Shown: positions 46,279 to 48,586 of the stretch, piece after piece
Numbering within the stretch: position 1 is the first letter of the stretch
Layout of the letters: the number at the start of each line of letters is the position of its first letter
Origin: Actinomycetota bacterium
Lineage (GTDB): Bacteria; Actinomycetota; Actinomycetes; Nanopelagicales; Nanopelagicaceae
Assembly: GCA_026393015.1 (NCBI GenBank)
Contig: JAPLBA010000114.1
Span: 1-56,638, forward strand
Direction: 5' to 3'
Length of the DNA: 56,638 nt
Made by a program: the position numbers and the translations under genes
Notes under the pieces: model-generated
Seen by the model: the letters and a program-made list of their open reading frames with translations, nothing else
The model's database searches: none
What the model was told of the DNA's origin: nothing

Positions 46279-46875
46279 TCAACTTCCGTACTCCTCGATC
46301 AGGCTCTTTGCAACCTCTCCCATGGTCGAGCGCTGGTCCATCGCCCGCCGTTGGATCGTCTTAAATGACTCTGACTCGGAGAGCTGCTGATGTTCCATGA
46401 GGATCGCCTTAGCACGATCGATATCTTTCCGAGCGGCCAATCGCTCCCCGAGATCGGCCACCTCGCCTTCCAGCGCGATGATCTCTTGATGTCTGGTCAC
46501 GGCGATCTCGATCGCCGGAACTAAATCGGGCAACGAAAAAGGCTTCACCAGGTATGCCATCGCGCCGGCATCTCGCGCACGTTCCACTAATTCACTCTGA
46601 CTAAATGCAGTCAACATGAGAACTGGCGCAATGCGCGCAGCCACGATCTGCTCGGCTGCCGTAATGCCATCCATCACAGGCATTTTCACGTCCAAGATGA
46701 CCAGGTCGGGTCGCAATTCAAAGGCAAGTGCAAGAGCGGCCTCGCCATCTGCCGCCTGGCCGACTACGTCGTATCCGGCCTCGGTCAGCATTTCCACGAG
46801 ATCTAGCCGAATCAACGCTTCATCTTCGGCCACCACAACGCGATGGCGAGATGCACGCTCAGGATTCAATTGCAC
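46279..46875 (-). CDS. pdtaR: PdtaR-type response regulator with ANTAR RNA-binding domain
   Basis: A 198-residue regulator. The receiver domain (about 10-130) has the acidic pair AEDEALIR, the phospho-acceptor Asp in VILDVKMPVMDG (near 62), TAFS and the conserved Lys in LVKPFS. The C-terminal ANTAR domain (about 140-198) has RKDIDRAKAILMEHQQLSESES and AMDQRSTMGEVA. ANTAR proteins bind paired hairpins in target transcripts and block termination. The GTG start at 46875 has TAGGCT 6 nt upstream, so it is probably leaderless and monocistronic. The partner histidine kinase is not in the window. Confidence 0.94.
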   Translation of the reverse strand: MQLNPERASRHRVVVAEDEALIRLDLVEMLTEAGYDVVGQAADGEAALALAFELRPDLVILDVKMPVMDGITAAEQIVAARIAPVLMLTAFSQSELVERARDAGAMAYLVKPFSLPDLVPAIEIAVTRHQEIIALEGEVADLGERLAARKDIDRAKAILMEHQQLSESESFKTIQRRAMDQRSTMGEVAKSLIEEYGS

Positions 46876-46966: not shown

Positions 46967-47039
46967 GCCTCGGTACTCCAACGGTAGAGAGGGCGGTCTC
47001 AAACACCGCACAGTGTCGGTTCGAATCCGACTCGGGGCA
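46967..47039 (+). tRNA. tRNA-Leu (anticodon CAA) with short variable loop
   Basis: A 73-nt cloverleaf: acceptor GCCTCGG paired with TCGGGGC (including G-T pairs), discriminator A; a 3-bp D stem CTC/GAG with 10-nt loop containing GGTAGA; anticodon stem GCGGT/ACCGC with loop CTCAAAC, so anticodon CAA at 47000-47002; variable loop ACAGT; T arm GTCGG-TTCGAAT-CCGAC. CAA reads UUG, leucine. A73, A14, the A15-U48 pair and the 3-bp D stem are leucine-like, but leucine tRNAs normally have a long variable arm and this one has 5 nt. CCA is not encoded. Low-scoring or misfolded alternatives (Glu, Ser) fit worse. Confidence 0.8.
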
Positions 47040-47068: not shown

Positions 47069-48529
47069 CTACCTATAGGCAGGGGCGACACCGCTGACCG
47101 CATCGCCCACGCAATGGACGCGCATGGCGTTGGTCGATCCAGGAATGCCCGGCGGGGAGCCAGCCACGATCACAATTAAATCGCCCACGACTGCGCGTTT
47201 GGACTCAAGCAACACTGAATCAATCTGTTTCACCATTTGATCGGTGTGCTCAACCGAAGGCACAAGAAGCGGTTCGACGCCCCACGAGAGCGCTAAACGA
47301 TTGAAGGTACCCACCTCGGGAGTCAACGCGAGTAGCGGAATAGCAGAGCGCAGGCGCGACATTCGACGAGCGGAATCCCCTGATTGCGTAAACGCCACCA
47401 GAAACTTCGAGTTAGTCACAGCACCGACTTCGACTGCGGCCTTCGTAATGGCGCCACCTTTACTACGTGGATTGTGCTGAAGCGGTTTTACTGATGCAAG
47501 TGCCACTAATTCGGTTTTCGCGATAATGCGACTCATCGTTTCCACCGCTTCAACAGCGAATGCCCCTACAGCAGTTTCGCCAGAGAGCATCAGCGCATCA
47601 GCGCCGTCGAGTACCGCATTCGCACAATCCGTCGCCTCAGCACGCGTGGGTCGGGCAGAAATAATCATTGAATCGAGCATTTGTGTAGCCACGATGACTG
47701 GCTTTGCATTCTCACGCGCGATCGTGATGCACCGCTTTTGCACGAGGGGTACATCCTCAATGGGAAGTTCTACGCCAAGATCCCCACGCGCCACCATAAT
47801 CGCATCAAAAGCCAAGACGATTTCTTCCAGATTCTCGACAGCTTGTGGTTTCTCAATCTTCGCAATAACTGGAATGCGGCGCCCCACCTCATCCATAATA
47901 CGATGTACATCTTTGATGTCTTCAGCCGTGCGCACAAACGAGAGCGCGATCCAATCTGCCCCCGCTCCTAATGCCCAACGCAAGTCTGCTTTATCTTTCT
48001 CCGACAATGCAGGTACCGACACTGCCACTCCGGGCAGATTAATTCCTTTGTTATTACTCACCTCACCGGCGTATATAACACGCGTGACAACATTCGCGCC
48101 CTCTACCTCGGTGACCTCAAGAGAGACTTTGCCGTCGTCGATCAAAATAGGATCGCCCACTCGAACGTCTCCAGCCAGGCCTTTATATGTAGTCGAGCAC
48201 CTCTCTTTGGTGCCTTCGACATCATCTGTCGTAATAGTAAATACATCGCCTTTAGCCAGCGCGTGTGGACCGTTCTCGAAGCGGCCAAGACGAATCTTTG
48301 GACCTTGCAAATCAGCAAGAATGGCAACCGCTCGTCCGGCGGCTGCTGCAGCGCGCCGCACTTCGGTGAGTCGGCGTTGGTGTTCGGCATGATCGCCGTG
48401 AGAGAGATTAAGACGGGCCACATCCATGCCAGCAGCAACTAGGCGATCTACTTGTTCGGCGCTTTCACTCGCCGGGCCGATAGTGCACACGATCTTGGCG
48501 CGTCTGACTCGGACATGTGGGGTACTCAT
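47069..48529 (-). CDS. pyk: Pyruvate kinase
   Basis: Final ATP-forming step of glycolysis, 486 residues. Landmarks are AKIVCTIGPASE near 12, MDVARLNLSHGDH, LADLQGPKIRLG, the active-site PVIAKIEKPQAVENL with catalytic Lys, VARGDLGVELP, and TQMLDSMI. The C-terminal allosteric domain ends near AYR. I start at the ATG at 48529 (MSTPHVRVRR), which has GAGAGG upstream; nine more codons upstream are not conserved. It lies 57 bp after gltD, probably in the same transcript. Confidence 0.97.
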   Translation of the reverse strand: MSTPHVRVRRAKIVCTIGPASESAEQVDRLVAAGMDVARLNLSHGDHAEHQRRLTEVRRAAAAAGRAVAILADLQGPKIRLGRFENGPHALAKGDVFTITTDDVEGTKERCSTTYKGLAGDVRVGDPILIDDGKVSLEVTEVEGANVVTRVIYAGEVSNNKGINLPGVAVSVPALSEKDKADLRWALGAGADWIALSFVRTAEDIKDVHRIMDEVGRRIPVIAKIEKPQAVENLEEIVLAFDAIMVARGDLGVELPIEDVPLVQKRCITIARENAKPVIVATQMLDSMIISARPTRAEATDCANAVLDGADALMLSGETAVGAFAVEAVETMSRIIAKTELVALASVKPLQHNPRSKGGAITKAAVEVGAVTNSKFLVAFTQSGDSARRMSRLRSAIPLLALTPEVGTFNRLALSWGVEPLLVPSVEHTDQMVKQIDSVLLESKRAVVGDLIVIVAGSPPGIPGSTNAMRVHCVGDAVSGVAPAYR

Positions 48530-48586
48530 GCAACACATCCTCTCACAGTGGTTCAAGAACCTTCGGTTCGTAAGTGATGGCGCTCC

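Follow-up and report, generated by a model that had tools for sequence, protein, structure and literature searches.

The window analysed here is the 56,638-nucleotide contig JAPLBA010000114.1 from a member of the Nanopelagicaceae (assembly GCA_026393015.1). Its single tRNA gene (46967-47039/47040, forward strand), which ARAGORN and Rfam RF00005 agree is complete, lies between pdtaR and pyk, where the preliminary description had placed it and where the open reading frames of the window confirm it. The locus holds the following features.

46279..46875, - strand: pdtaR-like response regulator, divergent neighbour (ORF); marks the orthologous locus across the class
46967..47039, + strand: tRNA-Leu(CAA), short-armed (class I); called by ARAGORN, Rfam, fold and family conservation
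46976..46991, + strand: D arm, 3-bp stem CUC/GAG, loop CAACGGUAGA, with leucine-type A14, A15, G18 G19 and A20a
47000..47002, + strand: anticodon CAA, predicted to read UUG, in the loop CTCAAAC; starts at gene position 34
47010..47014, + strand: variable loop ACAGU, 5 nt, U48 facing A15 (from the sequence)
47069..48556, - strand: pyruvate kinase (pyk), convergent neighbour (ORF); shared at the locus in many genomes

The gene is 73 nt long and forms a complete cloverleaf with no mismatch in any stem. Its acceptor stem, GCCUCGG/UCGGGGC, has 7 pairs, with the wobbles U4-G69 and G7-U66 as its only irregularities, and is followed by U8 and A9, the D stem and the 10-nt D loop CAACGGUAGA, an anticodon stem GCGGU/ACCGC closing the loop CUCAAAC, a T stem GUCGG/CCGAC and the discriminator A73; CCA is absent from the gene. 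ARAGORN, Rfam and a direct parse bear out the preliminary description in its 73-nt cloverleaf with anticodon CAA, 3-bp D stem, 10-nt D loop, A73 and A15-U48 pair, and the sequence likewise agrees with its 5-nt variable loop ACAGT and with its claim that the acceptor stem holds G-T wobbles and nothing worse. The RF00005 score of 50.7 bits (E 5.9e-8) is above the gathering score of 29. The minimum-free-energy fold is the cloverleaf with a z of -1.4, so that energy by itself is weak evidence, and we take conservation, rather than fold energy, to be the strong evidence for this tRNA. Promoter and terminator scans of the flanks found nothing, which says little for actinobacteria. Class II tRNAs have a variable region of at least 10 nt; here it has 5 nt, within the 4-5 nt of class I, and core positions 9, 12-23 and 13 are also of a non-class-II kind. 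The bacterial leucine identity set of A73, A14, A15-U48, G18G19 and A20a (PMC9976931) is present, the anticodon is a leucine anticodon and UUG is used for leucine in the organism. None of the marks of a pseudogene, namely broken stems, no conservation and a redundant functional copy, applies to it.

In the genome to which the window belongs (1.81 Mb, 163 contigs, 99.87% complete), 45 tRNA matches were found and then read with ARAGORN. Three leucine tRNAs are long-armed (CAG, 85 nt; GAG, 87 nt; UAG, 84 nt), and both UUR tRNAs, the UAA tRNA of 75 nt with variable loop ACAGA and the CAA tRNA of the window, are short-armed, with no long-armed UUR tRNA among the 45 matches. This absence is weak alone, with 163 contigs and with Lys-UUU and Arg-ACG also not seen, and because the assembly is fragmented the claim leans on complete relatives. 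In the single-contig family genomes G018 and G031 the only long-armed tRNAs are Leu UAG, Leu GAG, Ser GGA, UGA and GCU, and Tyr, and no canonical UUR tRNA was found in either; pattern searches for long-armed UAA or CAA genes matched in 0 of the 8 family genomes tested. We thus set aside a second, canonical CAA gene, none being found in the gene's own genome or in its complete relatives. Exactly this 73-nt sequence recurs in 3 other genomes of the genus, and 35 of the 36 other family genomes have the gene at 92-100% identity (92-96% outside those three). Two further observations concern tRNAs elsewhere in this genome. In its short tRNA-Leu(UAA) (L063, complement 152-226 of G000:C85) A48 faces A15, a broken Levitt pair, and among the parsed short genes only L189 (A15-C48) is similarly odd. 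A weak Gly-like tRNA of 38.5 bits (L072, G000:C163:700-772), for which ARAGORN gives no full anticodon, may be a pseudogene or an odd tRNA.

The short form extends well beyond this family. A pattern that combines a UUR anticodon with a downstream 5-nt variable loop matched in 249 of 297 genomes of the class, some of these matches being due to chance, as is one of the three in the genome of the window. In a set of 80 representative genomes from the class, 51 have a short tRNA-Leu(CAA) and 21 a long one, 47 have a short tRNA-Leu(UAA) and 10 a long one, no genome has both forms for either anticodon, and in 28 both UUR tRNAs are short; these counts come from the listed matches, exclude G232 for UAA (an eleventh long match, not tRNA-like) and G293 for CAA (no tRNA there), and depend on a long-armed pattern that requires an AGAC motif, which atypical genes could escape. 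In all 107 parsed short UUR tRNAs the variable loop is 5 nt. Named carriers of short genes are Mycobacterium asiaticum, Nocardia, Gordonia, Rhodococcus and Corynebacterium, and further Bifidobacterium, Streptomyces lincolnensis, Micromonospora, Salinispora and Planktophila versatilis. When 149 genomes sampled from the phylum were searched with a stricter pattern, 34 matched, and the majority of these lie outside the class. Short genes also occur in single metagenome-assembled genomes (MAGs) of Rokubacteria, Deltaproteobacteria, Planctomycetota, Chloroflexaceae, Christensenellaceae and Gemmobacter, among which binning errors are possible; the Rokubacteria MAG has a long-armed UAA gene as well, and in the first three the short gene follows tRNA-Cys. 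The glyW-cysT-leuZ genes of E. coli have the order Gly-Cys-Leu(UAA), which matches the arrangement in these three MAGs.

Short-armed CUN tRNA-Leu genes are present in 13 of the 80 genomes, mostly with UAG and in G163 and G089 also with CAG or GAG (including L410-L414), and with these the idea of a loss restricted to UUR tRNAs was discarded: arm loss is mostly, not exclusively, a matter of UUR tRNAs. About 30 tRNA genes, many of them off-consensus and with 2 short and 2 long tRNA-Leu among them, are clustered on one stretch of a Chloroflexaceae MAG contig (L309), which has the look of a tRNA array of phage or mobile origin. The short tRNA-Leu(UAA) at L191 (G098:C5:214941-215130), with the loop CTTAAAA, was called tRNA-Phe(AAA) by ARAGORN, and short-armed leucine tRNAs can therefore be misannotated.

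The architecture of the short form was compared in 160 distinct short-armed genes and 42 long-armed leucine tRNAs. A73, A14, G18, A20a, U8 and G1 are invariant in the 160 short genes, and their 15-48 pair is A15-U48 in 155 and G15-C48 in 3, a covarying tertiary pair. Position 9 is A in 157 of the 160 short genes and G in all 42 long ones, pair 12-23 is C-G in 160/160 short genes against G12 in 41/42 and C23 in 42/42 long ones, and position 13 is C in 157 of 160 short genes against G in 37 of 42 long ones. Stem cells are paired in 3172 of 3200 cases (99.1%), and compensatory double changes occur at 17 of the 20 stem pairs, with identical sequences counted once and relatedness uncorrected. The short form is thus more than a long form with its arm cut out, the core having been rebuilt in the style of class I. 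Four short tRNA-Leu(CAA) genes form a subgroup in family f20 (L116, L118, L184 and L186, from G124, G232, G195 and G076), with the D arm GGCAAATTGGCAAAGCC, the acceptor sequence GGCCCGG and the variable loop TGTGT or TGTTT, and are possibly a second, independent short form. On trees of the tRNAs, which with about 60 columns are poorly resolved, the free topology needs 8 class changes, and a tree constrained to keep all short genes in one group, with the trait columns removed, reaches a better likelihood than the free one and passes without rejection (p-AU 0.56). With so few columns, a single origin of the short genes is allowed but not proven.

Long-armed CAA genes are at most a few hundred bases away from pdtaR at 11 of the 11 loci tested (G048, G123, G140, G038, G061, G144, G259, G251, G163, G066 and G161), and so are short-armed CAA genes at 9 of the 9 loci fetched with flanks (G054, G039, G047, G037, G097, G058, G064, G169 and G073), often with pyk and gltD further along; among the named genomes, pdtaR is also near the short CAA gene in Mycobacterium, Streptomyces, Bifidobacterium and Salinispora. 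Because genes of both forms adjoin pdtaR, one orthologous locus carries either class. The class switches inside families and even inside genus g35, whose genomes are Streptomyces-like (6-11 Mb, with a bldA-like long UAA tRNA) and have a short CAA tRNA in G054, G074 and G185 and a long one in G123. Long and short UAA genes, examined less closely, share neighbours too, as at L396 and L395 versus L391, L392, L111 and L074.

The meaning of the codons was read from leucyl-tRNA synthetase (LeuRS) itself, aligned from 8 family genomes and 22 genomes of other families, in columns where a single residue makes up at least 90% of the sequences from other families and the family itself has UUA or UUG. The conserved residue is leucine at 73 of 74 positions with UUA and 65 of 68 with UUG, similar to the CUN codons, and in the longer open reading frames of the window UUA and UUG make up 513 of 1889 leucine codons (27%). 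Reassignment of UUG is thus unsupported, UUG standing at conserved leucine columns, and since UUR codons occupy such positions and only short-armed UUR tRNAs were found, the short tRNAs must deliver leucine. Bacterial-type LeuRS has one locus per genome in the 80 genomes (two partial matches in the fragmented G043), and very probably this single enzyme charges the short UUR tRNAs. Such charging would agree with work on E. coli LeuRS, which uses A73, A15-U48, G18G19, A20a and D/T-loop contacts and for which the anticodon and the long arm are dispensable, truncated variants without the long arm staying active (PMC9976931). LeuRS similarity is independent of tRNA class (78.6-85.9% within g35). 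Two LeuRS columns split the groups when all sequences were pooled, and contrasts within families broke the association, so that co-change of LeuRS was discarded; within-family comparisons found no residue that tracks the switch between long and short, a negative result which nevertheless fits a LeuRS that seems to tolerate both arm forms.

We propose, with a probability of about 0.88, that the gene in the window encodes a leucine tRNA which functions with an alternative, short-armed architecture, reads UUG and, together with the short tRNA-Leu(UAA), covers all UUR decoding. In this model the tRNA would be expressed, and LeuRS would read A73 and the elbow (A14, A15-U48, G18G19 and A20a), not the variable arm, which would be dispensable once the core had been rebuilt in class I style with A9, the C12-G23 pair and C13. 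The broken Levitt pair (A15/A48) of the genome's own UAA tRNA counts against this model. The preliminary description had suggested a reduced leucine tRNA in a streamlined genome, of which the working reduced tRNA stands, backed by family conservation, by the failure to find another CAA gene of canonical form, by stems that are intact and show compensatory changes, and by UUG read as leucine, whereas streamlining fails as its cause, the short arm being present in the large genomes of Streptomyces, Mycobacterium, Nocardia and Micromonospora, in tRNA-Leu(UAA) and sporadically in other phyla. Its suggestion of a decayed copy, which could be extended to an assembly artefact with a deleted arm, has the missing arm in its favour and nothing more, and with a sequence identical in 3 genomes, conservation in all but one of the other family members, compensatory changes and no canonical gene in complete genomes we regard its probability as negligible. 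Charging by another synthetase with another amino acid, with UUG mistranslated or the tRNA in non-ribosomal use, draws on a variable loop outside the usual description of leucine tRNAs, on an anticodon that shares A35A36 with tRNA-Phe and C34A35 with tRNA-Met, and on the genome's own tRNA-Met ranking second after tRNA-Leu(UAA) in pairwise alignment scores; the window tRNA would, however, be the main decoder of UUG, a codon found at conserved leucine positions, its leucine elbow and A73 are invariant, and its nearest relative in the genome is tRNA-Leu(UAA), all of which makes this reading highly improbable.

As for how the short form reached its loci, the arm may have been lost many times independently with leucine function unchanged, the shared A9, C12-G23 and C13 being convergence imposed by class I geometry, and the mosaic within one genus and family, the 8 class changes on the free tree and the sporadic short genes in Rokubacteria, Deltaproteobacteria, Planctomycetota, Chloroflexi and Christensenellaceae MAGs (in the first three after tRNA-Cys) speak for such losses. 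The better likelihood of the tree with all short genes together and the core differences, which at four sites are nearly absolute and leave hardly any intermediates, speak against them, and we hold this history to be a serious possibility at somewhat less than even odds. One origin at a fixed locus would imply that the gene was replaced in place. In our model the pdtaR-tRNA-Leu(CAA) locus would be orthologous across Actinomycetes and would have switched several times between long and short forms, probably through replacement by members of one short lineage (recombination or gene conversion) and not through simple deletion of the arm. A broader version, which we offer only tentatively and think rather doubtful, is that short-armed leucine tRNAs are a separate, old bacterial lineage that has repeatedly replaced the long gene in place at fixed loci by these means, perhaps to escape SerRS, tRNA-cleaving toxins or phage nucleases, or through special control of UUR decoding as with bldA in Streptomyces.

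The rule that bacterial tRNA-Leu belongs to class II underlies textbooks, identity reviews, tRNA-seq pipelines and gene callers, and the exception described here is class-wide, covers medically and industrially important genera and switches at one orthologous locus, even within a genus. It offers a natural experiment on the purpose of the long arm and on the tolerance of a single synthetase for two architectures of its tRNA. It has consequences for annotation, as the tRNA-Phe call of a short tRNA-Leu(UAA) by ARAGORN illustrates, and for control through UUA of the bldA kind, since Streptomyces-like genomes keep a long UAA tRNA and mostly have a short CAA tRNA. A 2023 review gives the long arm to leucine tRNAs everywhere but in animal mitochondria, a 2020 review of non-canonical tRNAs places tRNA-Leu in class II (PMC7609411) and a microbiome tRNA-seq pipeline handles Leu as type II (PMC6297222), while a mycobacterial study reports, in a tRNA cluster, a tRNA-Leu(UAG) with a short loop unlike the larger one expected (PMC6582537). 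We found no description of a bacterial short-armed tRNA-Leu class in the open-access literature; the short genes are surely already in tRNA databases, and priority for the class-wide observation is uncertain.

The window tRNA shares with the class II tRNA-Leu of bacteria, such as E. coli leuX (CAA) and leuZ (UAA), its anticodon, A73, 3-bp D stem, A14, A15-U48, G18G19 and A20a, and differs from them in a variable loop of 5 nt instead of 13-17 nt and in A9, C12-G23 and C13 instead of G9, G12-C23 and G13. With the long-armed tRNA-Leu(CAA) of related actinomycetes it shares the chromosomal locus. A mutated tRNA-Met copy, thought to be silenced, resembles it in having a CAA anticodon and no long arm, but the window tRNA keeps its leucine features and is required by decoding logic. 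The mycobacterial tRNA-Leu(UAG) with a short variable loop is likewise a short-armed leucine tRNA of an actinobacterium, although it is a cluster copy with a normal isoacceptor elsewhere (PMC6582537), whereas in the present case UUR codons have no decoders other than the short genes. Finally, animal mitochondrial tRNA-Leu(UUR) is also a leucine tRNA without a long arm, its identity resting on A73 and A14 (PMC9976931), but the tRNA described here forms a full cloverleaf in which the D and T loops are canonical, and it belongs to free-living bacteria, where it is presumably served by an ordinary bacterial LeuRS.
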